Shown: in pieces, positions 1,730 through 44,087 of the stretch | How the letters are laid out: every line of letters begins with the position of its first letter | How positions within the stretch are numbered: position 1 is the first letter of the stretch | From: Thiohalobacter sp. IOR34 | Lineage (GTDB): Bacteria; Pseudomonadota; Gammaproteobacteria; Thiohalobacterales; Thiohalobacteraceae | DNA: 64,000 nucleotides | Reading direction: 5' to 3' | Assembly: GCF_030406045.1 (NCBI RefSeq) | Contig: NZ_CP128988.1 | Span: forward strand, 2,505,001 to 2,569,000 | Made by a program: the position numbers and the translations under genes | Notes under the pieces: model-generated | Seen by the model: the letters and a program-made list of their open reading frames with translations, nothing else | Databases searched by the model: none | Told to the model about the DNA's origin: nothing

Positions 1730-2860
1730 ATGTCCGAGCTCTATCTTGGCCTGATGTCCGGCACCAGCCTGGACGCCGTGGACGCCGTGGCCGTTGATCT
1801 GGGGCAGGCGGAGCCCCGCCTGCTGGCCGCCCTCAGCCATCCCCTGCCCGCCGGGCTGCGTGCCGAGATCCTGGCCCTGAGTCATGGCGTGGCCAACGAT
1901 GCCGTCGACCGCCTCGGACAGCTCGACCACAATCTGGGGATCTGCTTCGCCGAGGCCGTGACCGAACTCTGCCGGCGCGCCGGACTGGAGCCGGACCAGA
2001 TCCGGGCCATCGGCAGCCACGGCCAGACCCTGCGCCACCGCCCACAGCCGCCGGCGCCCTTCTCCCTGCAGATCGGAGACCCCAACCTGATCGCGGAACG
2101 CACCGGCATCACCACCGTGGCCGACTTCCGCCGCCGCGACCTGGCGGCCGGCGGCCAGGGCGCCCCGCTGGTACCGGCCTTCCATGCCGCGGTCTTTCGC
2201 AGCCAGGAGGAACAGAGGGTGGTACTCAACATCGGCGGCATGGCCAACATCACCTGCCTGCCCGCCGACCCCGAGCCCCCGGTCACCGGCTTCGACACCG
2301 GACCCGGCAACGTGCTGATCGACATCTGGATCCAGGAACAGCGGGGGCAGCCCTTCGACCGCGACGGCGCCTGGGCGGCCAGCGGGCGAGTCGACGAGGC
2401 ACTGCTGGAACGGATGCTGGAGGAGGACTTCTTCGCACAGCCGCCACCGAAGAGCACCGGCCGGGAACTGTTCAACCGCGCCTGGCTGCAGCGGCAACTG
2501 GCCCAGCGCAGGCTGGCGGCGGAAGACGTGCAGGCCACGCTCACGGCGCTGACCGCAACCAGCATCGCCCAGGCCATCGAGCGTTGGGCAAGGGGGACGG
2601 CGCGCATCCTGCTCTGCGGGGGGGGCGCCCGCAACAACGAGCTGATTCGCCAGCTGCGCGACCTGCTGCCCGCCTGCAGTATCGAATCCACGGGCCGCCA
2701 TGGACTGGAACCGGAGTGGGTGGAGGCGGTGGCCTTCGCCTGGCTGGCGAAACAGACCCTCGAAGGCCGGCCTGGCAACCTGCCCTCCGTCACCGGCGCC
2801 GGCCACCCCGTGGTGCTCGGCGCCATCTACCCGGGGCAATCGGTCTGCCCTTCCAGCTAG
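1730..2860 (+). CDS. anmK: Anhydro-N-acetylmuramic acid kinase
   Basis: Cytoplasmic kinase of cell-wall recycling. It opens the 1,6-anhydro ring of anhMurNAc and phosphorylates it to MurNAc-6-phosphate using ATP. The N-terminal GLMSGTSLD motif (residues 6-14) and the central FDTGPGNVLID segment are diagnostic of the family, and 376 aa is the normal length. It belongs functionally with AmpD encoded at 38.1 kb, which releases the anhydro-sugar substrate. The stop codon (2858-2860) is the TAG of a CTAG target into which a MITE-B type element is inserted, so the coding region ends exactly at the element border. Confidence 0.95.
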   Translation: MSELYLGLMSGTSLDAVDAVAVDLGQAEPRLLAALSHPLPAGLRAEILALSHGVANDAVDRLGQLDHNLGICFAEAVTELCRRAGLEPDQIRAIGSHGQTLRHRPQPPAPFSLQIGDPNLIAERTGITTVADFRRRDLAAGGQGAPLVPAFHAAVFRSQEEQRVVLNIGGMANITCLPADPEPPVTGFDTGPGNVLIDIWIQEQRGQPFDRDGAWAASGRVDEALLERMLEEDFFAQPPPKSTGRELFNRAWLQRQLAQRRLAAEDVQATLTALTATSIAQAIERWARGTARILLCGGGARNNELIRQLRDLLPACSIESTGRHGLEPEWVEAVAFAWLAKQTLEGRPGNLPSVTGAGHPVVLGAIYPGQSVCPSS

Positions 2861-2985
2861 CCCGGATATTGCATCAGGCCCCGGACGATGGCGTGCCTGG
2901 ACCCGCCGGGGATCGCGGCCTGGAGGCCGCTCCTACGGGGCATGGCGGCACCCTGGTAGGAGCGGCCTCCAGGCCGCGATTGGCG
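2861..2985. mobile_element. MITE-B copy 1 (REP-bearing element, right end lost)
   Basis: It starts right after the CTAG at 2857-2860 with CCCGGATATTGCATCAGG and carries an inverted pair of REP sequences (about 2916-2941 and 2957-2982; arms CTGGAGGCC/GGCCTCCAG). The same left arm and REP pair occur in the complete copy at 50275-50413. No matching right terminus (CAATATCCGGG) is visible, so this copy is decayed or truncated. From here to 3146 nothing else is recognised. Confidence 0.7.
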
Positions 2986-3146
2986 TGGTGTTGACAGGCC
3001 CCCAGGAGTCTGTCGGATTCAGGCAATCGTAGCGAACAGGGCGGGAGAGCGGGCACAAATTTTCACGATTACGAGGCGCATCGTGGGCCTACGCAACGAG
3101 AAGTCGGAGGGATTTGGGCCGCCCTCCCATCAGCGCGGTAGATTAG

Positions 3147-3391
3147 CCCGCATATTGCACGAAGGATTCGAGTTTCAGGGCGAATCTGGCCAAGCAGTTT
3201 GTTCGATCGACCGCCGAAGCATAGCCGTCGCTATGGTTCAAGGGCGATCGGGAAAAATGCGACGCCAGATTTGGTCTGAACTCGAATAGGCACAAACTGT
3301 AGCAGGGCACAATTGCTCGCAGAGGGAATTACTGCCTTGATAAATACCGGAAAAATTACGCATGCAAGGCCGCCTTCGTGCAATATGCGGG
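3147..3391 (+). mobile_element. MITE-A copy 1 (245-bp non-autonomous element)
   Basis: The termini CCCGCATATTGCACGAAGG and its exact inverted complement bound 245 bases with no transposase coding capacity. The left neighbour is TTAG and the right neighbour CTAG, compatible with a 4-bp target. The interior carries a hairpin around the CATAGCC/GGCTATG-type sequence and an A+T-rich right part. It is nearly the same sequence as copy 2 at 9033-9277. Short target, terminal C-rich repeats and small size resemble non-autonomous relatives of IS1380/piggyBac-like elements, but that assignment is an inference. Confidence 0.85.
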
Positions 3392-3590
3392 CTAGGAGCT
3401 AGGAGCTAGGAGCTGGGAGCTAGGAGCTAGGAGCTAGGAGCTGGGAGCTGGGAGCTGGGAGCTGGGAGCTGGGAGCTGGGAGCTGGGAGCTGGGAGCTGG
3501 GAGCTGGGAGCTGGGAGCTGGGAGCTGGGAGCTGGGAGCTGGGAGCTGGGAGCTGGAAGGGCGGGCACTGCCCGCCCTTCTGACTTCTGA
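3392..3590. repeat. Heptanucleotide array with flanking palindrome
   Basis: About 23 consecutive 7-base units, first CTAGGAG then mostly CTGGGAG, run from 3392 to about 3557. A GC-rich palindrome follows (GGGCGGGCACTGCCCGCCC, about 3558-3579), then TTCTGAC units that abut the gltA stop. The array begins on the CTAG that is also the right flank of MITE-A copy 1. The palindrome could serve as the end of the gltA transcript. Confidence 0.9.
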
Positions 3591-3596
3591 CGCCCC

Positions 3597-4754
3597 CTAC
3601 CGCTGGCCGATGGGGATGTAGTCGCGCTCCGACTCGCCGGTGTAGACCTGGGTGGGGCGGAAGATGCGATTGTCCTTGAGCTGTTCGCGCCAGTGCGCCA
3701 GCCAGCCGGCACAGCGGGCCACGGCGAAGATCGAGGTGAACTGGTCCTCGGGGATCCCCATGGCGCTGTAGAGGATGCCGGAGTAGAAGTCGACGTTGGG
3801 ATAGACGCCCTTGGGACCGAGCCGCGCCTCACACAGCTCCTCCAGTTTCAGCGCAGTCTCGAACAACGGCCCCATCTCGCCGCCACGTTCACGCATCAGC
3901 TCCAGCATCATGTTCTGGAGGATGGTGGCGCGCGGGTCCTTGACCTTGTACTCGCGGTGCCCCATACCCCAGATCTTGGCCTTCTTGGCCAGCTTGTCCT
4001 CCAGCCAGGCCTCGGCCCGGTCCGGGGAGCCGATCTCGCGCAGCATCTCCACCACCCGCTGGTTGGCCCCGCCATGCAGCGGCCCGGCCAGGGTGCCGAC
4101 TGCGGCGGCGATCACCAGGTAGGGGCTGGCCAGGGTCGAACCGGCGACCAGCGCGGCGAAGGTCGAGGCGTTGATGGTGTGCTCGGCATGCAGGATCAGA
4201 CAGGCGTCCATGATCCGCGCCAGCAGCGGATCGGGATCCCGGCCGTTGAACATGTACAGCAGGTTTTCCGCATAGGTGAGGTCGTCACGCGGCTCGATGG
4301 GATCATAACCGTTGCGGATGTGCTGCCACATGGCCACCAGGGTCGCCATCCGCGCCAGAATCTTCACCGACATGTTGTGCACGTAGTCGAGATCCTCGCA
4401 GACCTCGCTGCCGGTCAGACACTCGTCGCCCGGATAGAACATCGCCAGCGAGGCGATGGAGGCCTGCAGCATCTCCATCGGGTGGCCGGTGGCGGGCAGG
4501 TACTTCATGATCTCGCGGATGTTGTACTTGACCCGCCGGTTGCTGCGGATCTGCCGATCGAACTCGGCCAGCTCCTCGCGCGTCGGCAGGCGGCCGTCGA
4601 GCAGCAGCATGGCGGTTTCCTCGAAACTGCTGTACTCGGCCAGATCCTTGATCCGGTAACCGCGATAGGTGAGGACCCCACGCTTGCCGTCGAGGTCGGA
4701 GATGTTGGACTTGGTCGCCGGAACGCCTTCCAGGCCAGGCAGGTATTCGTTCAT
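3597..4754 (-). CDS. gltA: Citrate synthase
   Basis: Condenses oxaloacetate with acetyl-CoA to citrate, the entry step of the TCA cycle. The catalytic triad is visible: H227 in PLHGGAN, H266 in GMGHREYK and D322 in YPNVDFYSG. The product is 385 aa, shorter than the hexameric allosteric enterobacterial enzyme and closer to the dimeric or 2-methylcitrate-synthase-like group, so some activity with propionyl-CoA cannot be excluded. The ATG at 4754 is chosen over one 18 bases upstream because GAGGAAGGG precedes it. It sits alone between anmK and erpA, which are often close neighbours in relatives, so it looks like an insertion into that order. Confidence 0.93.
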
Positions 4755-4850
4755 TGCCCTTCCTCTGTACAAACCTTGATGCGTGCCGGCTGTCGGCCGA
4801 CGGGATCGACAAGCATAGCAAAAGCCCGGCGGGGCGGCACGAAGCCAACG

Positions 4851-4875
4851 AAAAAGGGACGCCGAGGCGTCCCTT
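4851..4875 (-). terminator. Rho-independent terminator of erpA
   Basis: On the minus strand an AAGGGACGCC / GGCGTCCCTT stem with a two-base loop is followed by TTTTT. It lies 21 bases past the erpA stop and separates the erpA transcript from gltA. Confidence 0.85.
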
Positions 4876-4896
4876 GTCGGATCGTTGATGCGGGTC

Positions 4897-5259
4897 TCAG
4901 CCGGCCGAGAAGGACGAACCGCAGCCGCAGGTGGTGGTGGCGTTGGGGTTGCGGATCACGAACTGCGCCCCCTCCAGGTCTTCCTTGTAGTCGATCTCGG
5001 CACCCACCAGATACTGGAAGCTCATCGGGTCGATGAGCAGGGTCACGCCGCACTTCTCGACCGTGGTGTCGCCTTCCTGGATCTCCTCGTCGAAGGTGAA
5101 TCCGTACTGGAAGCCCGAACAGCCACCGCCGCTGACGAACACGCGCAGCTTCAGGTTGGGATTGCCCTCTTCCTCGATCAGGCCCTTGACCTTGGTGGCA
5201 GCCGCCTCGGTGAAGATCAACGGATCTTCCATGTCGGTGCTCGCAGCAGTCTCAGTCAT
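4897..5259 (-). CDS. erpA: Iron-sulfur cluster insertion protein ErpA
   Basis: A-type carrier that hands Fe-S clusters to apo-proteins, including isoprenoid-pathway and respiratory enzymes. The three cluster-binding cysteines are C47 (GGCSGF), C111 and C113 (CGCG), in the standard spacing. The product is 120 aa, close to the E. coli protein. Its own intrinsic terminator follows. The upstream gene on the same strand is a bactofilin 67 bases away. Confidence 0.95.
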
Positions 5260-5326
5260 AACAGCTCTCCGGAAAAATTCTGCCTCGGGATATGACTGGA
5301 CATTATCCGGCGCCCCCGCATGGGGG

Positions 5327-5773
5327 TCAAGAATCCCCGGAAACCTTCAGGTTGATGGATTCCGCCTCGGCCGTGGCATCCACCAGCTTGGGCGCCGCTT
5401 GCGCCTCCTCCGCCTGACCGCCGTGCACCAGCCTGCCGTTGACCTCGGCGCCCATCGCCATCTCGATCATCTGATAGAAGACGTTGCCGGTGACCCGCGC
5501 CCGGGGCGCCAGCTCGATGCGCTCGGCGGCGTGCACGTCGCCGAGCACCGTGCCGTTGAGAATGATATTCGGCACCCGCACCTCACCCTCGATACGGCCA
5601 TGCTCACTGAGCATCAGCACGGCGTCGTCCCCCTCCGCCGCAACCACGTTGCCCCTGATGGTGCCATCGACGTGCAGGCCGCCGCTGAAACACAGATCCC
5701 CGACCAGCTCGGTCTGCTGGCCGACCAGGGTATCGATGCGTGACGCCTTGCCCTTGCGATGTCTTCCCCACAT
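5327..5773 (-). CDS. Bactofilin (polymer-forming cytoskeletal protein)
   Basis: Small beta-helical protein that self-assembles into filaments. In other bacteria bactofilins localise cell-wall enzymes or set cell shape. The central region (roughly residues 20-120) shows the repeating GxxxVxGxI-type pattern of the family, including [10 protein letters not shown] and [21 protein letters not shown], with charged non-repetitive tails. The ATG at 5773 (MWGRHRKGK) lies 2 bases after the upstream stop codon, so it is translationally coupled to the coiled-coil membrane protein gene. An in-frame start further upstream would overlap that gene. With the coiled-coil protein it probably forms a membrane-linked scaffold; this is an inference. 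Confidence 0.85.
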
Positions 5774-5775
5774 GG

Positions 5776-6516
5776 CTAGTCCTCCCTGGGCCGGCTTCCG
5801 CCATCGGCCGGCCATTCGAATGTCCATTCTAGCGGTGTCCTGGATGGCGGCACCGCCAACGCCTTCACATTAACGCGCTCCGGCACGAAATCCGCCGGCA
5901 AGCGCCATTCCCCTTCCATGGGCTGGAAATAGCGGAAGCGATACTTGATCTCCTTGCGCCCGGTGGTGGAGATGGCCTGCAGCGGCAACTGCTTCAACTC
6001 GCCCGCCTGGCGGCCCTCGACCGTGAGGCGGACCACACCGCGTGCCACCCGGTCGTTCTTCTTCACCTGCACCATCACCATGCGGAAACGGTAACGGTTG
6101 TCGGCGCCGGTCGGCTCCACCATGAAGCCCTGGGCCCGGAGCCCGGCGCGGGCCGTCTCCGGCGACATGATGCCACGGAAGAAGCCCAACTCCTCGCGCA
6201 GCGACTGGATCTCCGCCTCCAGCGCGGCCCGGTCCTGCCGCAGGGCGGCATGGGCCTGCCGGTCGACCTGCTGCGAGCGTTCCAGCACCGCCAGCCGGCG
6301 GACCAGCTCGCCGTTCTCCGCATCCATCTCCGCCAGCCGCGCCTCGAGACGCTGGCGCTCGGCACGCAGCCGCTGCAGCTCAGCGGCCGCATCGCGCTGG
6401 CCGAGGCCATACAGTTGCCAGCCACCGAGCAGACCGACCAGAGCGAACAGCAGCAGGGCGGCACGCAGCTTCCAGGCCTGATAGACGAAGAGTTCGCTCT
6501 TGGGTTTCACAGGCAA
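5776..6516 (-). CDS. DUF6776-type coiled-coil inner-membrane protein
   Basis: Bitopic protein of 246 aa with a short cytoplasmic tail, one membrane segment at about residues 17-38, a strongly charged coiled coil at about 45-115 (dense E/R/L heptads) and a C-terminal beta-rich domain (about 120-230). The biochemical role is unknown. It is encoded between argC and the bactofilin gene, with which it is tightly coupled, so a role in positioning the bactofilin at the membrane is plausible but unproven. Confidence 0.75.
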   Translation of the reverse strand: MPVKPKSELFVYQAWKLRAALLLFALVGLLGGWQLYGLGQRDAAAELQRLRAERQRLEARLAEMDAENGELVRRLAVLERSQQVDRQAHAALRQDRAALEAEIQSLREELGFFRGIMSPETARAGLRAQGFMVEPTGADNRYRFRMVMVQVKKNDRVARGVVRLTVEGRQAGELKQLPLQAISTTGRKEIKYRFRYFQPMEGEWRLPADFVPERVNVKALAVPPSRTPLEWTFEWPADGGSRPRED

Positions 6517-6538
6517 ATCCCGCGCCAGGGCCAGGCGC

Positions 6539-7570
6539 TCAGGGTAACAGGGCGATGCCGTCCAGCCCCTCGGTCTCGCCGAAACCGCTCATCAGGTTCA
6601 TGTTCTGCACGGCCTGCCCGGCCGCCCCCTTGACCAGATTGTCGATCACCGAGAGGACCACGATCTGCGCGCCGTCCTGCGGACGGTGCACGGCGATGCG
6701 ACAGTGATTGGCACCGCGCACGCTGCGCGTCTCCGGGTGAGAGCCGGCCGGCAGCACGTCGACGAAGGGCTCGTCCGCGTAGCGTCCTTCGAACAACGCC
6801 TGCAGGTCACCGGCGTCGCCGCCGGCCGGAGCATAGAGGGTGGCATGGATACCACGGATCATCGGCGTCAGGTGGGGAACGAAGGTCAGACCGACCGCGC
6901 CGCCGGCGACCCGTTCCAGCCCCTGACGGATCTCCGGCAGGTGGCGGTGCCCAGGCACGGCATAGGCCTTGAGGCTCTCGCTGGCCTCCGCCAGCAGGGT
7001 GCCGACGCTGGCGCCGCGGCCGGCACCGCTGACCCCGGACTTGCAGTCCGCGATCAGCCGGCCGCTGTCGATCCAGCCGGCCTCGATCAGCGGCAGGAAG
7101 CCGAGCTGCACGGCGGTCGGATAGCAGCCGGGGTTGGCCACCACCCGCGCCTGTCGGATCGCATCCCGATTGACCTCGGGCAGGCCGTAGACGGCCTCGG
7201 CCAGGATCTCGGTGCAGGCATGCGGCATGCCGTACCACTGCTCCCAGAGGGCCGGATCGGCGAGCCGGAAGTCGGCGGCCAGGTCGATCACCTTCACCCC
7301 GGCCTCGACCAGCGCCGGCACCATCTGCATGGCGGTGCCGTTGGGGGTGGCAAAAAACACCAGATCGCAGGCCGACAGCCGGTCCACGTCCGGGGCGCTG
7401 AAGCAGATGTCCAGGGCGCCGCGCAGGTTGGGGAACAGCTCGGCCACCGGCTTGCCGGCCTCGGCCCGCGAGGTGACGACCTCCAGCGCCACCCGCGGAT
7501 GCCGCGCCAGCAACCGCAGCAGTTCGACCCCCGTGTAGCCCGTCCCGCCGACGACACCAACCTTGAGCAT
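6539..7570 (-). CDS. argC: N-acetyl-gamma-glutamyl-phosphate reductase
   Basis: NADPH-dependent third step of arginine synthesis, producing N-acetylglutamate semialdehyde. The N-terminal GGTGYTG nucleotide-binding loop and the catalytic C149 in NPGCYPTA are present; 343 aa is standard. The ATG at 7570 (MLKVGVVGG) is preferred; a GTG 12 bases upstream is the alternative. Transcribed divergently from the ClC gene, with 148 bases between the two starts. The other arginine genes in the window, argE and argA, lie 35 kb away. Confidence 0.95.
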
Positions 7571-7718
7571 GATGCAATTCACCCGAGCAGAAGAAAACAG
7601 CCGTCAATGATAAACGCTCGGCCGGCAAAAAGAACCTGCGCCAGAGAAGGCCTCATTTGCGCGACAGCAAGCATCTGATTACCATTCGCTTTCACACGTC
7701 ATCGAGCATCCCCTCGCA

Positions 7719-9032
7719 ATGCTGCACCGAATCCGCAAGTCCGGCCGGGAACTGCTGTCGCCCGAGGCCTGGAAGACGCGCATCGTGTTCTGGAGCGGAG
7801 CGGTGGTGGTCGGCCTGCTGGCGGCCCTGTTCGCCTACGGCACCGAATACGCCAACGAGATCTTCGCCGAGGGCGCCTCGGCCTATGCCTGGCTGCCGTT
7901 CCTGCTCAGTCCGCTCGGCCTGGGACTGATCGCCTGGCTGACCCGGCGCTACGTGCCGGGGGCCAGTGGCAGCGGCATCCCCCAGGCCATCGCCGCCCTC
8001 GGCCTGACCGAGCACGCCAGTCGCACTCATCTGCTGTCGTTCCGCATCGCCTTCAGCAAGATCGGCCTGTGCCTGCTGGGCATGCTCTCCGGCGCCTCCA
8101 TCGGCCGCGAGGGACCGACGGTACACGTCGGCGCGGCGGTGATGTTCTCGCTCGGCCGCTTCGCCCGCTTCCCCCACCATTACATGGACCGCGGCCTGAT
8201 CCTGGCCGGCGGCGCGGCCGGCATCGCCGCCGCCTTCAACACGCCGCTGGCCGGGATCCTGTTCGCCATCGAGGAGATGGGACGCTCCTTCGAGGAGCGC
8301 ACCAGCGGCACCCTGCTGACCGCGGTCTTCCTGGCCGGCATCACCGCGGTGGCCATCCAGGGCAACTACATCTATTTCGGCACCAGTGCCGCCCAGCTGC
8401 AACCCGGCGAGATGCTGCTGCCGATCCTGATCTGCGGCGTAGTCGGCGGCGGCCTCGGCGGCCTGTTCGCGCACGGCCTGGTATGGAGCACCCGGCGCAT
8501 CGCCGCGCTGGCCGGCCACCGGCCAGTGCTGCTGGCGATGGCCTGTGGCCTGGCCATCGCCAGCATCGGCTACCTCTCCGGCGGCCTGACCTTCGGCACC
8601 GGCTACCAAGAGGCACGGCAACTGGTCACCGGCCAGGGTGAGCTGCCCGGCGAATACGCCTTCCTGAAGATGGCCGCCACCTGGTTCTCCTACCTGAGCG
8701 GTATCCCCGGTGGCATCTTCGCCCCCTCGCTGGCCGCCGGCGCCGGCGTCGGCGCCATCATCGCCGACTGGCTGCCGGGCCTGCCGCTCGGCGCCATCGT
8801 CATCCTCGGCATGGTCGGCTACTTCACGGGGGTGGTGCAGACGCCGATCACCGCCTTCGTGATCGTCATGGAGATGACCGACAACAACGCCCTGCTGCTG
8901 CCGCTGATGGCCACCGCCTTCCTCGCCTATGCCACCTCCCGGGTGATCTGCCCGGAACCGATCTACCGAGCCCTGGCCCAGAACTTCCTGCCGCAACAGC
9001 CATCCAAGGCAAAAGGGGGCACACAGCCCTAG
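7719..9032 (+). CDS. ClC family chloride/proton antiporter
   Basis: Polytopic inner-membrane protein of 437 aa. The signature motifs are GSGIP (residues 84-88), GREGPTV with the gating glutamate E131, GIFAP near the second repeat, and the chloride-coordinating tyrosine Y416. The pair E185/E186 in the IEEM segment corresponds to the internal proton glutamate region of E. coli ClcA. Having both glutamates argues for an H+/Cl- exchanger rather than a channel. No CBS domains follow. The stop codon TAG (9030-9032) lies within the CTAG target of MITE-A copy 2, so the element starts at the base after the gene. Confidence 0.9.
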   Translation: MLHRIRKSGRELLSPEAWKTRIVFWSGAVVVGLLAALFAYGTEYANEIFAEGASAYAWLPFLLSPLGLGLIAWLTRRYVPGASGSGIPQAIAALGLTEHASRTHLLSFRIAFSKIGLCLLGMLSGASIGREGPTVHVGAAVMFSLGRFARFPHHYMDRGLILAGGAAGIAAAFNTPLAGILFAIEEMGRSFEERTSGTLLTAVFLAGITAVAIQGNYIYFGTSAAQLQPGEMLLPILICGVVGGGLGGLFAHGLVWSTRRIAALAGHRPVLLAMACGLAIASIGYLSGGLTFGTGYQEARQLVTGQGELPGEYAFLKMAATWFSYLSGIPGGIFAPSLAAGAGVGAIIADWLPGLPLGAIVILGMVGYFTGVVQTPITAFVIVMEMTDNNALLLPLMATAFLAYATSRVICPEPIYRALAQNFLPQQPSKAKGGTQP

Positions 9033-9277
9033 CCCGCATATTGCACGAAGGATTCGAGTTTCAGGGCGAATCTGGCCAAGCAGTTTGTTCGATCGCCCGC
9101 CGAAGCATAGCCGTAGCCAGGGTTCAAGGGCGATCGGGCAAAATGCGACGCCAGATTTGGTCTGAACTCGAACAGGCACAAACCGTAACAGGGCACGATT
9201 GCTCGCATAGGTGATCACTGCCTTGATAAATACCGGGAAAATTACGCTTTCAAGGCCGCCTTCGTGCAATATGCGGG
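9033..9277 (+). mobile_element. MITE-A copy 2
   Basis: 245 bases bounded by CCCGCATATTGCACGAAGG and its inverted complement, flanked on both sides by CTAG (9029-9032 and 9278-9281), a perfect 4-bp target duplication. It is the same length and orientation as copy 1 and differs from it at a limited number of positions. The left CTAG supplies the stop codon of the ClC gene. Confidence 0.9.
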
Positions 9278-9428
9278 CTAGCATCAGGACCCCGGAGGAT
9301 GACGTGCCTGGACCCGCCGGGGATCGCGGCCTGGAGGCCGCTCCTACGGGGCATGGCGGCACCATGTGTAGGAGCGGCCTCCAGGCCGCGATTGGCGTGA
9401 TGTTATTACCCGACAACCAGATATGCCG
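9278..9428. mobile_element. MITE-B copy 2 (decayed) plus a solo MITE-C end
   Basis: From 9282 the sequence matches the interior of MITE-B (CATCAGGACCCCGG onward) with a REP pair at about 9324-9394, but the CCCGGATATTG end is missing. At 9403-9428 a degenerate copy of the MITE-C terminus is seen (compare TTAACCCGGCAACCAAATAT). The piece is therefore a nest of partial elements between two MITE-A copies. Confidence 0.6.
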
Positions 9429-9432
9429 CTAG

Positions 9433-9677
9433 CCCGGATATTGCACCAAGGCGGCCCGCATGATCGGAGTGCAGGCTGGTATACAAGGCCAGGAGGCTCG
9501 CAAATAGGCCCTCGTGGCGGGATACACTTTGTGCCTATTCGATCTCAGGACGCATCTGGCTGCGCATCCTGGCCGATCGCCCTTGAACCATAGCTACGGC
9601 TATGCTTCTGCGGGCGATCGACCAACCTGCTTTGCCAGCTCCGCCCTGAGCATCGAATCCTTGGTGCAATATCCGGG
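9433..9677 (-). mobile_element. MITE-A copy 3
   Basis: 245 bases with termini CCCGGATATTGCACCAAGG, inverted relative to copies 1 and 2. Left flank CTAG (9429-9432); right flank CTAC (9678-9681), one mismatch from a perfect duplication. The interior has diverged substantially from copies 1 and 2, suggesting an older insertion. It lies 91 bases before the DUF4126 start. Confidence 0.85.
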
Positions 9678-9768
9678 CTACCGGCAAGAAGTGCGGACGG
9701 GGGTTACACCGTCCCCTGCCCCGGGTTACCATCGACCGCATCCCGTTCACACGGCCCCTACTCCCGTC

Positions 9769-10458
9769 ATGGAACAGATCGTCCAAACCATCGCCCTCAG
9801 CATGGGCGTCGCCTGGGCCAGCGGCATCAACCTCTATGCCGCCATCTTCATGCTCGGCTACATGGGCATGACCGGCCACATCGACCTGCCACCCGACCTG
9901 CAGGTACTGAGCGACCCCCTGGTGTTGTTCGCGGCGGGCTTCATGTACTGCGTGGAATTCTTCGCCGACAAGACACCGGGTGTGGACACCGCCTGGGACG
10001 GTATCCACAGCTTCATCCGCATCCCGGCCGGCGCCATGCTCGCCGCCGGCGCCATTGGCGACGTCAGCCAGGCTGCAGAGATCGCCGCCGCCCTGCTCGG
10101 CGGCAGCCTGGCCGCCGGCTCGCACCTGACCAAGGCTGGCAGCCGGGTGCTGATCAACACCTCGCCGGAACCCTTCAGCAACTGGACCGCATCCATCACC
10201 GAGGACCTGATGGTGATCGGCGGCCTGTGGACGGCCCTCAACCATCCCTGGCTGTTCCTTGGCCTGCTGCTGCTGTTCATCGCCCTGATGATCTGGCTGC
10301 TGCCGAAACTGTGGCGCGGCATCAAGGGGCTGTTTGCCTTCCTCGGCCAACTGTTCGGTGGCGGCTCGGCCGCACGCGCACCGCCAGCCGCTGGGGACAG
10401 CGGTCCCGCCCCCGGCGTCCCGCCGCCCCCGAAAAAGGACAGGCCCGCCGATCCCTGA
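9769..10458 (+). CDS. DUF4126 domain membrane protein
   Basis: Integral membrane protein of 229 aa with about five hydrophobic segments and a Pro/Ala-rich cytoplasmic tail. The segments ASGINLYAA, EFFADKTPGVDTAWDGIHSFIRIPAG and ITEDLMVIGG are characteristic of DUF4126. Function is unknown. The ATG at 9769 is chosen because the family begins here; the open frame upstream is only MITE-A sequence. hemJ follows 61 bases downstream. Confidence 0.8.
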   Translation: MEQIVQTIALSMGVAWASGINLYAAIFMLGYMGMTGHIDLPPDLQVLSDPLVLFAAGFMYCVEFFADKTPGVDTAWDGIHSFIRIPAGAMLAAGAIGDVSQAAEIAAALLGGSLAAGSHLTKAGSRVLINTSPEPFSNWTASITEDLMVIGGLWTALNHPWLFLGLLLLFIALMIWLLPKLWRGIKGLFAFLGQLFGGGSAARAPPAAGDSGPAPGVPPPPKKDRPADP

Positions 10459-10519
10459 CATCCCCCAACCCCGGCCGGGCAGCGCCTGAACGGTTTTTCC
10501 CGCCAACCGAGGAGAATTC

Positions 10520-10963
10520 ATGCACGTCGCCTACACCACCCTGCCCTGGGTGCTCGCCTTCCACGTCATCGCCATGGTCACCTGGTTCGCCGGCCTCTTC
10601 TATCTGCCACGGCTGTTCGTCTACCACGCCATGAGCGAGGACACCCCGAGCCGGGAACGCTTCAAGATCATGGAGCGCAAGCTCTACTACGGGATCATGG
10701 CCCCCGCCGCCCTGACTACCATCGGCCTCGGCCTCTGGCTGCTGGCCGCCAACTGGCCAGCCTATGCCCAGGCCGGCTGGATGCATGCCAAGCTGACCCT
10801 GGTCGGCGCACTGATCCTCTACCACCTGCAGTGTGGCCGCTGGCTCGCCGCCTTCCGCAACGACCGCAACAAGCGCAGTCACCGTTACTTCCGCTGGATG
10901 AACGAACTGCCCGTTCTGGCCCTGGTCGGCATCATCATCCTGGTCATCGTCAAACCCTTCTGA
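10520..10963 (+). CDS. hemJ: Protoporphyrinogen oxidase HemJ
   Basis: Four-helix inner-membrane enzyme (UPF0093 family, 147 aa) that oxidises protoporphyrinogen IX to protoporphyrin IX in haem synthesis, replacing HemG/HemY. The conserved WFAGLFYLPRLFVYH segment near the N-terminus, the WMHAKL segment and RWMNELP near the C-terminus support the call. A GAGGAG ribosome site stands 8 bases before the ATG. No other haem synthesis gene is adjacent; a Fur-controlled iron block follows downstream with its own promoter. Confidence 0.88.
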   Translation: MHVAYTTLPWVLAFHVIAMVTWFAGLFYLPRLFVYHAMSEDTPSRERFKIMERKLYYGIMAPAALTTIGLGLWLLAANWPAYAQAGWMHAKLTLVGALILYHLQCGRWLAAFRNDRNKRSHRYFRWMNELPVLALVGIIILVIVKPF

Positions 10964-11013
10964 GACGAGTTGCCGGCGAACGCGCCGCCTGGCCCTTCCC
11001 GGCTCAATATTCT

Positions 11014-11054
11014 AAATGAGAATCGTTTGCATTTATCTTCTCATCCTGTATACT
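11014..11054 (+). promoter_or_regulatory. Fur-box promoter of the porin/FMN/PepSY block
   Basis: AATGAGAATCGTTTGCATT (11015-11033) matches the inverted-repeat form of a ferric uptake regulator site. It overlaps a -35 hexamer TTGCAT (11027-11032), followed after 16 bases by TATACT (11049-11054) as -10. Repressor binding would cover the promoter, so expression is predicted to rise when iron is scarce. Confidence 0.75.
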
Positions 11055-11118
11055 GCCACGCACTGACATCCAGCAACCCCTGCGGCCGCGGGCCGCAGTC
11101 ACGACAGGAGAACGACAG

Positions 11119-12363
11119 ATGAAGCGCACCCCGATCGCCCTCGCCCTGCTTGGTCTTATCGGCCTGCCCGCCGCCCAGGCGGCAACCCTGCCCAGCGCCG
11201 AGGAGATGTGGCAGGTCATTCAGCAGCAGCAAAAGGAGATCGCCGCCCTCAAGGCACGGCTGCAGGACACGGACGAGAAGATCGAGGCCACCGGCGAGAT
11301 GATCGACAGCCTGCAGACCGGCGGCGAGGCCGGGGATGAAGATCGCCAGGCCCTGGGCGCTGCGCACTCGCCCTTCGAACACGGCAAGGCCGGGCGTACC
11401 GTGGTCGGCGGTTACGGCGAGCTGCACTACAACAACCTGGACGGCTCGGGCGGGGCCAGCGACAAGAACGAGATCGATTTCCACCGCGCCATCCTCTTCC
11501 TCGGCCATCAGTTCAACGAGCGGCTCCGCTTCTTCTCCGAGGTCGAATACGAACATGCCGCCACCGATGCCAACGGCGCCGTGGAGCTGGAACAGGCCTA
11601 TCTCGAGTTCGACCTCAGCGACACCCAGCGGGTCCGCGCCGGCCTGTTCCTGACCCCGGTCGGCATCCTCAACGAGACCCATGAGCCGCCGGCCTTCTAT
11701 GGCGTGGAACGCAACCCGGTGGAAACGAACATCATCCCCACCACCTGGTGGGTGGGCGGCGTCTCGCTGAACGGCGAAATCGGCAGCGGCTGGAGCTACA
11801 CTGCGGCGCTGCACGAGGGCATGAATACCGCCGCCGGCAGCAACTACGCGGTGCGCAGCGGCCGCCAGAAGACCAGTGCCGCCGTCGCCAACGACCTGGC
11901 CTTCACCGGCCGCCTGAAATGGACCGGCCTGCCCGGCGTGGAGCTGGCCGCCAGCCTCCAGTACCAGGGTGACGTCACCCAGGGCAGCGACCCCGCTGCC
12001 GGCAGCGCCTGGCTGTACGAGGCCCATGCCATCCTCAACCGCGGCCCCTTCGGCCTCAAGGCCCTCTATGCCCAGTGGGATCTGGACGGCAGCGGACCCG
12101 CCTCGGTCGGCGCCGACGAACAGAGCGGCTGGTTCCTCGAACCCGCCTACCGCATCAACGACCGGCTGGGCCTGTTCGTCCGCTACAACCAGTGGGACAA
12201 TCGTGCCGGCGACAGCAGCGCCAGCGAGAAGAAGCAGTGGAACCTGGGCGTCAACTGGTGGCCCCACCCGGATGTGGTGGTCAAGGCCGACCTCCAGAAC
12301 CAGGACAATGCCGATGGCGCCGACCAGGACGGCTTCAACCTCGGCGTCGGCTACCAGTTCTAA
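11119..12363 (+). CDS. Outer-membrane porin with N-terminal coiled coil
   Basis: Signal peptide (about 1-21, ending AAQA), a coiled coil at about 28-65 rich in Q/K/E, then alternating beta-strand sequence typical of phosphate-selective or OprO/P-like porins, ending in an aromatic residue (GYQF) as outer-membrane barrels do. 414 aa. The substrate is not readable. The coiled coil suggests trimer stabilisation or peptidoglycan contact. It is first in a Fur-box-controlled block, so iron-related transport is more likely than phosphate; this is inferred from context. An intrinsic terminator follows the gene. Confidence 0.8.
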   Translation: MKRTPIALALLGLIGLPAAQAATLPSAEEMWQVIQQQQKEIAALKARLQDTDEKIEATGEMIDSLQTGGEAGDEDRQALGAAHSPFEHGKAGRTVVGGYGELHYNNLDGSGGASDKNEIDFHRAILFLGHQFNERLRFFSEVEYEHAATDANGAVELEQAYLEFDLSDTQRVRAGLFLTPVGILNETHEPPAFYGVERNPVETNIIPTTWWVGGVSLNGEIGSGWSYTAALHEGMNTAAGSNYAVRSGRQKTSAAVANDLAFTGRLKWTGLPGVELAASLQYQGDVTQGSDPAAGSAWLYEAHAILNRGPFGLKALYAQWDLDGSGPASVGADEQSGWFLEPAYRINDRLGLFVRYNQWDNRAGDSSASEKKQWNLGVNWWPHPDVVVKADLQNQDNADGADQDGFNLGVGYQF

Positions 12364-12382
12364 CACCGGCAGTTGCGGGAAC

Positions 12383-12410
12383 GGCGCCCCCTCCAGGGGG
12401 GCGCCTTTTT
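12383..12410 (+). terminator. Intrinsic terminator between porin and FMN-binding gene
   Basis: A GGCGCCCC / GGGGCGCC stem followed by TTTTT lies 20 bases after the porin stop. It probably lets the porin be made in excess over the two downstream genes by partial termination. Confidence 0.85.
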
Positions 12411-12435
12411 CCTTTCCACGAACAGGAAACACAGC

Positions 12436-12963
12436 ATGCAACGACTGATCATCCTGCCGCTGCTCTGGCTGCTGCTGACCGGCCTCGCCCTGGCTCGCGG
12501 CACCTACCAGACCCCTGGCGACTTCATCGATCAGGCCTTCGACGGTGATCCGCCCAGGGCGCGGGTCCTCTGGCTGAAGGGGGCGCTGCGCAAAGAGGTC
12601 GAGGACCTCCTCGGCCACCGTTATCCCAGCCTGCGCATCCGCTACTGGGCACGGGGGGCGCGCAGCGCCTGGATCCTCGACGAGATCGGCAAGGACGAAC
12701 CCATCACCGTCGGCGTGGTGGTCGACACCGGCCGCATCGACCGGCTGCGGGTACTGGTGTTCCGCGAGTCGCGAGGCGACGAGGTCCGCCATCCCTTCTT
12801 CACCCGCCAGTTCGAGGGCGCGGCGCTCGACGGGCGGCAACGGCTGGACCGCGGCATCGACAACATCTCCGGCGCCACCCTCTCGGTGCGTGCCCTGAAG
12901 AAACTCGCCCGGCTGGCCCTGCTGCTCGACCGCTGGCGCAACCGCCAGGCGCCCGAGGAATGA
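12436..12963 (+). CDS. Periplasmic FMN-binding domain protein with flavinylation motif
   Basis: 175 aa with a signal peptide (about 1-21) and an FMN-binding domain ending in DNISGATLS. SGAT at 145-148 matches the D-x-x-S-G-A-T target of the ApbE flavin transferase, which would attach FMN covalently to T148. The protein is therefore expected to be an exported one-electron carrier, as in NqrC/RnfG-like and extracytosolic flavin systems. It starts 25 bases after the terminator, and the PepSY membrane protein gene follows 25 bases later. No apbE is in the window. Confidence 0.8.
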   Translation: MQRLIILPLLWLLLTGLALARGTYQTPGDFIDQAFDGDPPRARVLWLKGALRKEVEDLLGHRYPSLRIRYWARGARSAWILDEIGKDEPITVGVVVDTGRIDRLRVLVFRESRGDEVRHPFFTRQFEGAALDGRQRLDRGIDNISGATLSVRALKKLARLALLLDRWRNRQAPEE

Positions 12964-12988
12964 ACCCCGCCCACGGAGAAGAGCCGGC

Positions 12989-13807
12989 ATGACCCGCCAC
13001 AAACGCCGGCGCCTTCCGCTGCGCTCGCTCTATGTCTGGCACCGCTATCTCGGCGTCGCCGTGGCCCTGCTGGTGACGCTGCTCGCCATCAGCGGCCTGC
13101 TGCTCAACCACACCGAGGCGCTGCAACTCGACAGCCGCCCGGTGCGCAGCGCCTGGCTGCTCGACTGGTACGGCATCGAGGCCCCCGAGCTGCAGCAGCA
13201 CTTCAGCGCCGCGGGCCATGACTTCAGCCAGCTCGACCGACAGCTGTATCTCGACCGGCAGCCGATCGAGGGCGAATATCACCGGCTGTTCGGCGTCGTC
13301 TCGCTCGACGACCTCTATGTGGTGGGGGTGGGCGATGGCCTGCTGCTGCTCAGCCCGGAAGGCGAGCGTATCGAGCTGCTGGAGCGCAGCGCGGGACTGC
13401 CGGCCGGGCTGCGCGCCCTGGGGGTGGATGGCGAAGGCCGGCTGCTGCTTCGTGCTGCCGGCGGTCTCTTCCGCCCGGACGCCGACTTCCTGAGCTGGCA
13501 TCCACTGGCCGGGGAAGACGAGGCGGCCCACTGGTCGAAGGCGAGCCCGCCGCCGCCCCGCCTGGCCAGGCAACTGCGACAGGCCTACCGCGCCGGCATC
13601 CTGCCCCTGGAGCGAGTGGTTCTGGACCTGCACAGCGGGCGTATTCTCGGTCCCTGGGGCGTCTGGCTGATGGACGCCGCGGCGCTCGGCCTGCTGCTGC
13701 TCGCCGCCAGCGGCAGCCTCCTCTGGTGGCAACAGCAGCGCAAGCGCCGCGCCCACCGCCGCGAACGATCGAAGCGCGGAGCGCACAGGGGACCAACGAG
13801 GCAATAG
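12989..13807 (+). CDS. PepSY-associated transmembrane protein
   Basis: 272 aa with two membrane segments (about 17-38 and 227-247) around a periplasmic domain. The N-terminal LYVWHRYLGVAVALL and C-terminal LDLHSGRILGPWGVWLMD segments are the hallmarks of PepSY-associated TM proteins, some of which work as siderophore or ferric reductases. Histidines in the HRYLG and DLHSG segments could be haem ligands. Encoded after the flavinylated protein in a Fur-box-led block, it probably passes electrons across the membrane to the flavin or to ferric substrate; this role is inferred. Confidence 0.78.
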   Translation: MTRHKRRRLPLRSLYVWHRYLGVAVALLVTLLAISGLLLNHTEALQLDSRPVRSAWLLDWYGIEAPELQQHFSAAGHDFSQLDRQLYLDRQPIEGEYHRLFGVVSLDDLYVVGVGDGLLLLSPEGERIELLERSAGLPAGLRALGVDGEGRLLLRAAGGLFRPDADFLSWHPLAGEDEAAHWSKASPPPPRLARQLRQAYRAGILPLERVVLDLHSGRILGPWGVWLMDAAALGLLLLAASGSLLWWQQQRKRRAHRRERSKRGAHRGPTRQ

Positions 13808-13876
13808 ACAACACCGGCCTCTGGCCACCCCGTGGCCTCTGATCGCGGTCTGGCCCTGCTCCTACATGCGGGCCAA

Positions 13877-16147
13877 TTACTTGCCGGCGCGGATCAGCCC
13901 GCCGAGCCCGGCCTCGTCCAGGGCATTGTGCAGCAGGGCGCGGATGGCGCCCGCCTTCTCCAGGCCGAGCGCGGCCTCGACCAGTTCCCGCGCCCGCTGG
14001 CGGGAGATGGTGCGCAGCACCCACTTGACGCGCGGCAGGCTGCCGGCGCTCATGCTCAGGCTGTCGACGCCCAGCCCCAGCAGCAGGATGGCCGCCGCGG
14101 GATCGCCGGCCATCTCGCCGCAGACGCTGACCGGCCGCCCCTGACCGTGGGCCCCGTCGACGATCTGCTGCAGGGCACGCAGCACCGCCGGGTGCAGGCT
14201 GTCGTAGAGTTCCGCCACCCGCGGGTTGTTGCGGTCCACGGCCAGCAGATACTGGGTCAGGTCGTTGGTGCCGACGGAGAAGAAATCGACCCGCTGCGCC
14301 AGGGCATCGATCTGATAGAGCACCGAGGGCACCTCGATCATCACCCCCAGCGGCGGCAGACGCACCGGGATACCGTCCTCCTGCAGCTCGCGGTGGGCAC
14401 GACGCAGCAGGTCCATCGCCTCGTCCACCTCCGCCACGTCGCTGACCATGGGCAGCATCAGGCGCAGGTTGGACAGCCCCTGGCTGGCGCGCAGGATGGC
14501 GCGCAGCTGGGTCAGGAAGAGTTCCGGATGATCCAGCATCAGGCGCACGCCGCGCCAGCCGAGGAAGGGATTGTCCTCGACCACGGGAAAATAGGGCAGC
14601 GCCTTGTCACCGCCGACATCCAGGGTGCGCAGGGTCACCGGCGAGGGGGAGAAGCCCTCCAGCACCTGGCGGTAGATGCGAGTCTGCTCGTCCTCCGAGG
14701 GGAAGCCGTCGCGGATCATGAAGGGCACCTCGGTGCGATACAGACCGACGCCATCGGCGCCACTGCGCAGCGAGGGCGAGATGTCGGACAGCAGGCCGGT
14801 GTTGACGTACAGCGGCATGCGCAGCCCGTCCGGGGTCTCGGCCGGCAGCGCGGCCAGTTGCTCCAGCCCCGCCTTGAGTTCGTCCTCCTCGCGCACCAGG
14901 CGCTGGAACTCCTCCAGCATGGCCGGTGTCGGCTTGACGAAGACCCGGCCGCGGTAGCCGTCGACCACCAGCGGCTGCCCTTCCAGGCGCCCCGCCGGCA
15001 GCTCGTCCACACCCATCACCGCCGGGATGCCGAGGGCATGAGCGAGGATGGCCACGTGCGAGGAGCCGGAGCCACGCGCCGAGACTACCCCCACCAGCCG
15101 CTGCGGCGGGATCTCGGCCAGCTGGGCGGCACTGATCTCCTCGCCGACCAGCACCGTCGGACCGTCCACCTCGGCATGGGCCGGTGTGTCCTGCTCGAGA
15201 TGGGCGAGGATGCGGCGCCCCAGATCGCGGATGTCGGCGGCCCGCTCGCGCAGATAGGGGTCGTCCATGTCCTCGAAGATGGTGACGTGCTCGGCAATGG
15301 TCTCGCGCAGCGCCCCCGGGGCCCAGTTGCCGGCCCGGATGCGTTCGATCCCGCCGTCCACCAGGGTGTCGCTGGAGAGCATCAGGGCGAAGGCCTCGAA
15401 CAGCGCCAGGTCCTCGGCCGGCAGGGCACTGCCCAGCCGTTCCCCGAGGGTACGGAACTCGGCCTCCACCCCGGCCAGGGCCTTGCGGTAGCGCGCCACC
15501 TCACGCTCGATCGCCTCGCCCTCGATGCGGTGATCGGGGATCGCCTCCAGCTTGGCCGGCGGATAGACCACCAGGGCATTGCCGATCGCCAGTCCCGGCG
15601 ACCCCGGCAGGCCGCGCAGGGTGAAGGCCTTGCCAGCCACCTCCTGCAGCAGCTGGGCGACCCCGCCCGAGGCCTCGGCGTGGCTGATGGCCCCGGCCAG
15701 CTGCGCCGCCAGGGTCAGCAGGAAGGTCTCGTCCTGCTCGCCGAAACGGCGCCGTGCCCGCTGCCGCACCACCAGTACGCCGAGCACCGTGCGGTGCTGG
15801 ATGATGGGCACGCCGAGAAAGCCGTGGTAGGCCTGTTCGCCGGTGTCATGGATGTGCTTGTAGCGGCGGTGGCTGGGCCCGCTCTCGAGATTGACCGTCT
15901 CGGCCCGCTCCACCACCAGGCCCACCAGCCCCTCCCCGGGGCGCAGCCGGACCCGGCCGATGGAGGCCGGATTGAGGCCCTCGGTGGCCATCAGCACCAG
16001 GCGGTCGTCGCTGAAGTCGCGGAAATAGACCGAGGCCGCATCCACCCCCATGGCCGCCTTGACCCGGCGGACGATGATGTTCAACGCCTCCTGGAGATCG
16101 GTGGCCTCGCTGACCTCCTGGATGATTCGGCGCAACCTGTGCAGCAT
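13877..16147 (-). CDS. ptsP: Phosphoenolpyruvate-protein phosphotransferase PtsP (EI-Ntr)
   Basis: First enzyme of the nitrogen phosphotransferase relay. It takes phosphate from PEP and passes it to NPr and EIIA-Ntr, a regulatory rather than sugar-transport pathway. An N-terminal GAF domain (about 1-160) is followed by the EI N-terminal domain with phospho-histidine H364 in SSHVAILAHALG, and the PEP-binding barrel including the GTNDLTQY segment. 756 aa is the normal size. The ATG at 16147 with AGGGA 7 bases upstream is preferred over a TTG 6 bases earlier. It lies downstream of rppH, as in many gammaproteobacteria. Confidence 0.95.
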   Translation of the reverse strand: MLHRLRRIIQEVSEATDLQEALNIIVRRVKAAMGVDAASVYFRDFSDDRLVLMATEGLNPASIGRVRLRPGEGLVGLVVERAETVNLESGPSHRRYKHIHDTGEQAYHGFLGVPIIQHRTVLGVLVVRQRARRRFGEQDETFLLTLAAQLAGAISHAEASGGVAQLLQEVAGKAFTLRGLPGSPGLAIGNALVVYPPAKLEAIPDHRIEGEAIEREVARYRKALAGVEAEFRTLGERLGSALPAEDLALFEAFALMLSSDTLVDGGIERIRAGNWAPGALRETIAEHVTIFEDMDDPYLRERAADIRDLGRRILAHLEQDTPAHAEVDGPTVLVGEEISAAQLAEIPPQRLVGVVSARGSGSSHVAILAHALGIPAVMGVDELPAGRLEGQPLVVDGYRGRVFVKPTPAMLEEFQRLVREEDELKAGLEQLAALPAETPDGLRMPLYVNTGLLSDISPSLRSGADGVGLYRTEVPFMIRDGFPSEDEQTRIYRQVLEGFSPSPVTLRTLDVGGDKALPYFPVVEDNPFLGWRGVRLMLDHPELFLTQLRAILRASQGLSNLRLMLPMVSDVAEVDEAMDLLRRAHRELQEDGIPVRLPPLGVMIEVPSVLYQIDALAQRVDFFSVGTNDLTQYLLAVDRNNPRVAELYDSLHPAVLRALQQIVDGAHGQGRPVSVCGEMAGDPAAAILLLGLGVDSLSMSAGSLPRVKWVLRTISRQRARELVEAALGLEKAGAIRALLHNALDEAGLGGLIRAGK

Positions 16148-16324
16148 CGACAATCCCTGAAACTAATCGAACGGTGAATGGTTTCGGCCCTGGTGGCCGG
16201 GCAACATCGAGACGAGGGGTGGATGCCGGCGACCCCGGCGGCCGGCGGTGCGACCCGGGGTGGACCAGGAACCTGTCCAAGTCACATGCGGCTACTGCAA
16301 CGCGCAGATGACTCGGACAGGCTC

Positions 16325-16855
16325 CTAGCGGCGGTGGTGGCGGACCTGCGCCTGACCCGAATGCGGGATGGGCGGCACGCCGTCCGGGAACAACAGGGGC
16401 GCCAGCTCACGCAGGGCGCGCTTGTAGACGCCACGCTTGAAGGACACCACCTCGTGCAGCGGATGCCAGTAGCTGACCCAGCGCCAGCGGTCGAACTCGG
16501 GATGATCGGTCCGGTCCAGCCGCACGCGGGACTCGTTGCCGATCAGCTGGAGCAGGAACCAGACCTGCTTCTGGCCGATGCACACCGGCCGGCAGTGTCG
16601 GCGGATGAAACGGTCGGGCAGGCGATAACGCAGCCAGCCGCGGGTGGCGCCCATGATGCGCACGTCCTCCGGGGCCAGGCCCACCTCCTCGCCCAGCTCC
16701 CGGTACAGGGCCTCCTCCGGCGTCTCGTCCGTGCGGATCCCGCCCTGGGGGAACTGCCAGGCCTCCTGACCGATGCGCCGGGCCCACAGCAGGCGCCCGT
16801 CCCGATTGCTCAGGATGATGCCCACGTTCGGCCGATACCCATCGATATCAATCAC
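16325..16855 (-). CDS. rppH: RNA pyrophosphohydrolase RppH
   Basis: Nudix hydrolase that removes pyrophosphate from 5'-triphosphate mRNA and so starts RNase E-dependent decay. The protein starts [12 protein letters not shown] after a GTG codon at 16855, as in the family, and the Nudix box lies at about residues 38-60 (GGIRTDE...RELGEEVGL). 176 aa. A GGGGA sequence upstream of the GTG supports this start. The gap of 177 bases to ptsP contains no recognisable gene. Confidence 0.93.
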
Positions 16856-17011
16856 TTGCCATCCCCATGCGGAAAACCGGAGGTTCCTCGACGATTCTCC
16901 CACAAACCGGCTGTGGCGGGCAAACCACAGCTGGGGACGGCTGGTGATTGTCCTTGCCCCCGGGTACCACTATCCTGAGCGACCCGACCCCTGCCCCGGA
17001 GGAAGACCGTC

Positions 17012-17668
17012 TTGACCCTGGCACTGTTCGATCTCGACAACACCCTGCTGGCGGGTGACAGCGACTATCTCTGGGGACACTTCCTGGTCGAACAGGGGAT
17101 CGTCGACGGCGACGAATACGAACGTGAGAATCAGCGCTTTTACGATCAGTACAAGGCAGGAACCCTGGATATCGACGAATTTCTCGCCTTTTCCCTGCAG
17201 CCACTGGCGGCCCACGAGCCCCGCCAGCTGCATGCCTGGCGGGAGACCTTCCTGCACACCCTGATCGACCCCATCATCCTGCCGGCGGGGCGCGAGCTGC
17301 TGGAGCGCCACCGCCAGGCTGGCGATACCCCGGTGATCATCACCGCCACCAACCGCTTCGTCACCGCCCCCATCGCCGAGCGCCTGGGGGTGGAGCACTT
17401 GCTCGCCACCGAGGTGGAGATGCGCGACGGCCGCTACACCGGCCGCAGCTGCGGCATCCCCTGCTTCCAGGAGGGCAAGGTACGGCGCCTGGAGGCCTGG
17501 CTGGCCGAGCAGGGCGAAACCCTGGACGGCAGCTGGTTCTACAGCGACTCCCACAACGACCTGCCCCTGCTGGAACGGGTCAGCCGGCCGGTTGCGGTGG
17601 ACCCGGACGAGTCGCTGCGGCATACCGCCCTGGAACGCGGCTGGCCAGTGATCAGCCTGCGTGACTGA
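17012..17668 (+). CDS. HAD-IB family hydrolase (SerB-like phosphatase)
   Basis: Cytoplasmic phosphatase of 218 aa. The catalytic DxDxT loop is D7-L-D9-N-T, and the C-terminal [12 protein letters not shown] segment supplies the Mg-binding aspartates. Sequences of this subgroup dephosphorylate phosphoserine-like or other small phosphomonoesters; the real substrate is not readable. The start is a TTG at 17012 preceded by a strong GGAGGAAG ribosome site. The 3' end overlaps the start of btuC by 8 bases, so it may be co-transcribed with the B12 import genes. Confidence 0.8.
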
Positions 17669-18652
17669 AGGCATGCCGCGTACCCTGCCCCTGCTGCTCG
17701 GCCTGGCCATGCTCGGCCTGGCCAGCCTGGCGCTGGCACTGATGGCCGGCAGCATCCCGCTCAGGACCAGCCAGGTCTGGGCGGCCCTGCTCGGCGACGG
17801 CGCCGGCGAGGCCGGCCGCATTGTCCTCGAGCTGCGCCTGCCGCGGGCCCTGACCGCCTTCGCGGTCGGCGGCCTGCTGGCCCTGGCCGGCAGCCTGCTG
17901 CAGGTGCTGCTGCGCAACCCGCTGGCCGATCCCTATGTGCTCGGCACCTCGGGCGGGGCGGCGGTCGGCGCGCTCGGCGCCCTGCTGCTGGGGCTCGGCA
18001 GCCTCGGCCTCGGCGCCGGCGCCTTCCTCGGCGCCCTGGCCTCCACCCTGCTGGTGTTCGGCCTGGCGCGCGGCCTCTACGACTGGTCCTCGACCCGGCT
18101 GCTGCTGACCGGCATCGTGGTCGCGGCCGGCTGGGGGGCGCTGATCGCCTTCCTCCTCACCATCAGCCCGGAGCGCTACCTGCGCGGCATGCTGTTCTGG
18201 CTGATGGGCGACATCGGCGACCCCAGCCTGCCGCTGGCCGGCCTCTGGGCCCTGCCCCTGACCCTGACCGCGGCCTGGCTGCTGGCCCGGCCACTCGACC
18301 TGCTGGCCCGTGGCGAGCTGACCGCCGCCAGCCTCGGCGTGGCCGTCAGCGGCGTGCGCCTGGCCGTCTACGCCCTGACCGCGCTGGCCACCGCGGTCAG
18401 CGTCAGCTACGCCGGCAGCGTCGGCTTCGTGGGCCTGATCGTGCCGCACATGCTGCGCCTGGCCGGGGCGCGCAGTCATCGCAGCCTGCTGCCCGGGGCT
18501 GCCCTGGCCGGCGGCAGCCTGCTGGTTCTGGCCGACACCGCGGCACGCAGCCTGTTCGCCCCGCTGCAGCTCCCGGTCGGCATCCTCACCGCGCTGATCG
18601 GCGTACCGGCCTTCCTGTTCCTGCTGCTGCGCCAGGCGCCACGGGAGGTCAC

Positions 18653-18656
<4 letters not shown>
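17661..18656 (+). CDS. btuC: ABC transporter permease of FecCD/BtuC family (probable corrinoid import)
   Basis: Inner-membrane permease of 331 aa with about ten hydrophobic helices. The conserved [20 protein letters not shown] and [15 protein letters not shown] segments define the family. The GTG at 17661 overlaps the HAD gene; an ATG at 17673 is the alternative start. BtuC, FecCD and haem permeases are hard to separate by sequence alone. The B12 assignment rests on the nearby btuF and btuB genes. It overlaps btuD by 4 bases (ATGA). Confidence 0.8.
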
Positions 18657-19417
<761 letters not shown>

Positions 19418-19734: not shown

Positions 19735-19738
19735 TTTG

Positions 19739-32050: not shown

Positions 32051-32116
32051 GGAATGCCCAACCCCGGCTTCCGACGCGGTACAATCCGCCACCCGACTCC
32101 GCCGGAACGCTGCCTC

Positions 32117-43779: not shown

Positions 43780-44087
<308 letters not shown>

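Follow-up and report, generated by a model that had tools for sequence, protein, structure and literature searches.

IS1380-family transposases serve as the prokaryotic outgroup to piggyBac, whose insertions duplicate TTAA and, rarely, TTAG or CTAA (PMC10813416). Elements of this family (NF033539, PF13701) share with the MITEs described here a terminal inverted repeat (TIR) that starts with CCCG(G/C)ATAT and a 4-bp YTAR duplication, CTAG in most copies inspected, but unlike the MITEs they encode a transposase, and none was found in the MITE-bearing genome. IS1247, a published member of the family, produces a 5-bp duplication (PMC3281130), in contrast to the 4 bp of the MITEs. MITEPye1 of Paracoccus yeei, of IS1182 type, is small and intergenic, contains a strong stem-loop, and is thought to be moved in trans (PMC11578231); the present MITEs are alike in all of these respects, trans mobilisation being presumed here as well, but MITEPye1 is found at 1–3 copies per chromosome and has IS1182-type ends and an IS1182-type partner family. 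GTAG REPs, which belong to the REP/RAYT systems, are palindromes present in many copies near 3′ ends, and their termini frequently supply TAG stops (PMC3733652). They span 20–40 bp, whereas the MITEs here measure ~245 bp, with a TIR of at least 13 bp and a YTAR duplication, and the same genome holds separate REP-like arrays. In ISPsp10 (IS5 family, IS427 group), the insertion target also supplies a stop codon (PMC4133298), but it completes the gene of the transposase itself, whereas in the MITE case the stop is that of a host gene.

A small non-coding element is present in well over a hundred copies in the genome of Thiohalobacter sp. IOR34, and roughly one in three of those mapped lies exactly on a stop codon. 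These MITEs were probably moved in trans by an IS1380-type transposase that is now absent, with insertion restricted to YTAR, and their accumulation at gene ends is best ascribed to the rarity of that word in genes together with selection. An IS1380-family (DDE_Tnp_1_4) enzyme, since lost from the genome, would have cut at YTAR, favouring CTAG, and duplicated 4 bp. Because YTAR is scarce in G+C-rich coding DNA yet occurs between genes and at TAG and TAA stops, and because insertions in genes or promoters would be selected against, ~30% of surviving copies would come to lie right on a stop codon. That stop is retained in the target copy on the gene side, as a sequence-only reading of the locus had proposed, so the gene would presumably be left unharmed. 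The family thus provides a quantified case in which a 4-base target word that is scarce within genes would allow a transposon to multiply to many copies while apparently doing little harm.

The window, the whole 64-kb stretch of DNA that was analysed, contains eight members of the family, six with two ends and two that are one-ended remnants. The 245-bp copy at 9033–9277 has perfect TIRs (CCCGCATATTGCA) at both ends, forms a single long hairpin, and has no gene called inside it. CTAG lies on either side, and the left target copy (9029–9032, + strand), which CCCGCATATTGCA follows directly, holds the TAG stop (9030–9032) of a ClC channel gene; the right copy occupies 9278–9281 (+). At 2857–2860, CTAG includes the TAG stop of anmK (2858–2860, +) and is followed by CCCGGATATTGCA, the left end (2861–2873, +) of a one-ended element with a REP pair. 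At 19414–19417, TTAG includes the TAG stop (19415–19417, +) of an ABC-transporter ATPase gene, called btuD in the sequence-only reading, and adjoins a 317-bp element (19418–19734; flanks TTAG/TTTG) that also starts with CCCGGATATTGCA. An independent set of gene calls places the gene ends at 2860, 9032, and 19417, and the products match the Pfam families AnmK, Voltage_CLC, and ABC_tran. The sequence reads, gene calls, and Pfam matches together bear out the earlier claim that each of these three stops lies within a 4-base target adjoining an element end; no right TIR was recognised in the element at 2861, so two of the three cases are two-ended copies. The ClC orthologues of relatives have other C-termini, with TGA or TAA stops, and these relatives are too distant to show the pre-insertion stop.

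Two further 245-bp MITEs are intergenic, one at 3147–3391 (flanks TTAG at 3143–3146 and CTAG at 3392–3395) and one at 9433–9677 (CTAG/CTAC). A 174-bp element at 35885–36058, not at a stop, is bounded by TTAA (35881–35884 and 36059–36062), and this duplication and the CTAG duplication around the 9033 copy, both reported earlier, are real. The remaining members are a 139-bp element at 50275–50413 with a CTAG/CTAG duplication and one mismatch per TIR, and a degenerate copy represented by a single left end (26272–26284, +; flank CCAG). An Rfam search of window positions 2800–20000 gave no match. From 9282, after the right CTAG, the sequence (CATCAGGACCCCGG...) matches the element at 2861 minus its first 11 bases (CCCGGATATTG); comparison of 9278–9300 with 2857–2900 indicates that a second, REP-bearing element type appears to be trimmed where the 9033 copy meets it. 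Other repeats are present as well. REP-like palindrome arrays (GTAGGAGCGGCCTCCAGGCCGCGAT and variants) occur in both orientations with 88–127-bp periods at window positions 31090–32125, 46822–47507, 59537–60350, and 62937–63900, and heptad tandem repeats of the CTAGGAG, CTCCTGA, and CTTCTGG types lie at 3399–3560, 32779–32910, 43850–44060, and 55170–55260. The CTAG-bearing heptad arrays are the source of many CTAG sites, and one of them adjoins the element whose right flank begins at 3392. CTAG itself is depleted in the window, with 29 occurrences against 94 expected from shuffles.

Genome-wide, the single contig of 2,961,281 bp contains 333 exact element ends (CCCGNATATTGCA), mostly bounding ~245-bp MITEs. 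AGCCCGNATATTGCA accounts for 247 of them, as against no occurrence of the reversed-pattern control, and variants with H or BG before CCCG contribute 78 and 8, respectively (247 + 78 + 8 = 333). The TIR reads CCCG(G/C)ATATTGCA; paired ends are inverted and mostly 243–246 bp apart, with a modal length of 245 bp. Flanks were tabulated in stretches around most ends plus 20 evenly spaced 20-kb stretches that served as unbiased background, which together span 28% of the genome and contain 285 of its 333 exact ends. CTAG flanks 158 of these ends, TTAG 36, CTAA 26, TTAA 12, and other words 53. Among 75 elements with two exact ends, 47 have identical flanking 4-mers, compared with a permutation mean of 23 and maximum of 35. 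From these identical flanks and flank counts, the insertion target is YTAR, (C/T)TA(A/G), with a true 4-bp duplication and CTAG favoured. The earlier proposal of a CTAG/TTAA target named two words that are indeed used, but the set was too narrow, given the TTAG and CTAA flanks. The elements are MITEs by structure, being short, free of a transposase gene, bounded by paired TIRs and a target duplication, and dispersed at high copy number. Measured against a consensus of 65 copies in which subfamilies are pooled, full-length copies are ~83% identical at the median, a value that, given the pooling, is no guide to age. Elsewhere in the genome (2173177–2173817), four element left ends lie ~206–210 bp apart, apparently as a tandem array of copies, and the ends CACTAGTGTCCGGAA bound four almost identical IS copies of 1.33 kb (at 56225, 1071230, 1621586, and 2439922), which are unrelated to the MITEs.

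Insertion "at stop codons" needs to be judged against the positions that the target word already occupies. Elements were excised in silico to restore the empty site, and every insertion and every empty YTAR was then classed, element-adjacent and tandem-repeat sites being left out of the background. Gene calls came from an in-house 3-periodic Markov caller (84% coding; sample stops TGA 287, TAG 80, TAA 32), and gene starts and short genes are uncertain in them. The insertion and background sets are different samplings; p values are nominal and per test. Of 107 mapped two-ended insertions, 33 coincide exactly with a called gene's stop, and for 28 of these the adjoining gene scores 30 or more for coding; another 66 fall between genes and 8 inside them. 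Empty sites are distributed over stops, intergenic, and intragenic positions as 20/48/27 for CTAG, 12/94/22 for TTAG plus CTAA, and 6/59/10 for TTAA. CTAG insertions match the empty sites in their stop:intergenic ratio, 18:43 versus 20:48 (OR 1.00; 1.00–1.15), and CTAG occupancy scaled to the genome, a rough measure because the scaling uses recovered ends for insertions but length for empty sites, is 14.1% at stops, 14.1% between genes, and 4.5% within genes. For TTAA, none of four insertions is on a stop. For the two words that the sequence-only reading had singled out, tabulation against background thus yields no stop excess.

The word itself is unevenly distributed. CTAG density is 0.16/kb within called genes and 1.43/kb outside them, a ~9-fold coding deficit that agrees with the earlier statement on its rarity in coding DNA, and any codon ending in C that precedes a TAG stop creates the word. 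Fewer insertions than expected lie inside genes (8/107 vs 59/298, p=0.002) or in divergent (promoter) regions (p=0.04), and both deficits fit selection against harmful insertions. Given the equal occupancy of CTAG at stops and between genes, its scarcity in coding DNA, and the shortage of intragenic copies, the gene-end bias is mostly passive: it arises chiefly because YTAR is infrequent within genes and frequent where they end, rather than from a seeking of stops by the element. The idea that target preference steers insertion to gene ends thus survives insofar as the word is rare in coding DNA and copies gather between genes and on TAG/TAA stops, but not as a preference beyond the word's own positions. 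One stop copy, at genome position 511551, has CTGA on the stop side and CTAG at its other end, a configuration that a later change from TAG to TGA, preserving the stop, would explain.

TTAG and CTAA behave differently from CTAG, and they lend some weight to active targeting, in which the transposase or a host factor, such as the termination or translation machinery, directs insertion to stops or 3′ ends beyond YTAR. Stop insertions total 33 where word frequencies predict 21.5, and the TTAG/CTAA stop:intergenic ratio is 15:19 for insertions versus 12:94 for empty sites (p about 1e-4, OR about 6), or 7:7 versus 12:94 with identical duplications only (OR 7.8), with occupancies of 18.6% at stops and 3.6% between genes. 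Flank G+C is higher at insertions than at other non-coding YTAR, and the TTAG/CTAA excess persists after control for it (p=0.005), so that a stop excess over background sites exists for these two words and not for CTAG or TTAA. Pooling weakens the signal: in a logistic model of all four words, the stop effect has p=0.015 when word is the sole covariate and p=0.44 when flank G+C joins it, the word-by-stop interaction having p=0.009. Moreover, the main target, CTAG, has no excess, and when the comparison is confined to sites in the 60 bp that follow a stop, the preference for the stop itself falls short of significance (OR 1.7, p=0.14). In two relatives (G006 and G002), 22 classed elements comprise 2 at stops, 12 intergenic, and 8 called intragenic, several of these 8 within 30 bp of a called gene edge; the stop:intergenic ratio of 2:12 against a background of 6:41 gives no stop excess, although a sample of 22 is too small to reveal any departure from the home genome (p=0.22). 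Active targeting is therefore unlikely. The TTAG/CTAA excess, which emerged after splitting the data, is probably real but is without explanation; it counts against the passive account in that some factor beyond word density may act at these words. A slightly slimmer chance still attaches to a transposase that reads beyond YTAR and favours TAA/TAG stops at TTAG/CTAA, such that part of insertion is truly aimed at gene ends.

It is just as doubtful as active targeting that copies at stops were retained for a function, as 3′-end hairpins that end transcription or protect mRNA in the manner of REPs, which likewise adjoin 3′ ends and supply TAG stops (PMC3733652). Folded as RNA, the 245-bp copy at 9033 is far more stable than its shuffles (−125.7 kcal/mol, z −10.5), and this single long hairpin makes a predicted effect on transcript 3′ ends possible. 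Retention for such a role is disfavoured by the orientation of copies at stops, which is unbiased (18:15; a near-palindrome may work either way), by their conservation, which is no greater than that of other copies (0.805 vs 0.815 to the consensus), and by the lack of excess at CTAG stops.

The probable mover is read from ends and target. Among IS1380 elements drawn from a class-wide sample of other Gammaproteobacteria, a 1,637-bp element (L293) carries CCCGCATATTGCA at both ends around a 453-aa IS1380 transposase (NF033539 match, 424 bits); its flanks, TTAG/CTGA, form an imperfect duplication. Four more (L294, L296, L308, and L321) have CCCG/CCCA-type ends between CTAG/CTAG flanks, and the left end of L321, whose gene is broken, reads CCCGGATATTGCCCGAAGG and continues CCCGAAGG, close to the CACGAAGG of the MITE. 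TIR, target, and duplication length are thus common to the MITEs and autonomous IS1380 elements (imperfectly so for L293), and because the TIRs of the latter are identical or similar and CTAG is duplicated around them, an IS1380-family transposase is the likely mover. No full-length IS1380 with the whole MITE subterminal sequence was found. A search of the home genome with PF13701 returned only sub-threshold matches, to a 398-aa transposase with unrelated ends, and a search of the family with the L293 transposase gave no match. With no cognate transposase in the same genome, which a MITE does not require, the MITEs look like an orphaned IS1380-type family, its partner indicated by ends and target alone. 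IS701-type elements also have a 4-bp YTAR target; this partner was rejected, as 11 genomes of the family have no PF13546 (DDE_5) match. That resident IS5-group elements, which duplicate YTAR too, move the MITEs is very improbable: the IS copies L194–L196 have CTAG/CTAA flanks and DDE_Tnp_1 transposases, but their ends (GGAACCTCTGATCAA) are unlike CCCGNATATTGCA, and none of the retrieved DDE_Tnp_1 elements in the home genome is bounded by the MITE TIR.

Beyond this genome, the TIR letters found no match in the literature, and plasmids searched with a TIR query gave no convincing one. Viral contigs with YTAR plus TIR have mostly single, unpaired ends and are probably chance matches; two Elusimicrobia matches lie inside a thrS-like reading frame and also look like chance. 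A scan of genome contigs recovered no transposase-bearing copy, but it did recover MITE relatives in Gammaproteobacteria and short paired copies in Nitrospinae and Syntrophobacteria. This distribution suggests that related MITEs reach far beyond Thiohalobacteraceae, into other phyla, as an orphan family of several lineages with putative ties to IS1380 (piggyBac-like) transposases. In Syntrophobacteria and Nitrospinaceae MAGs (L211 and L233), the short paired elements have CCCGCATATTGCA ends and YTAR flanks.
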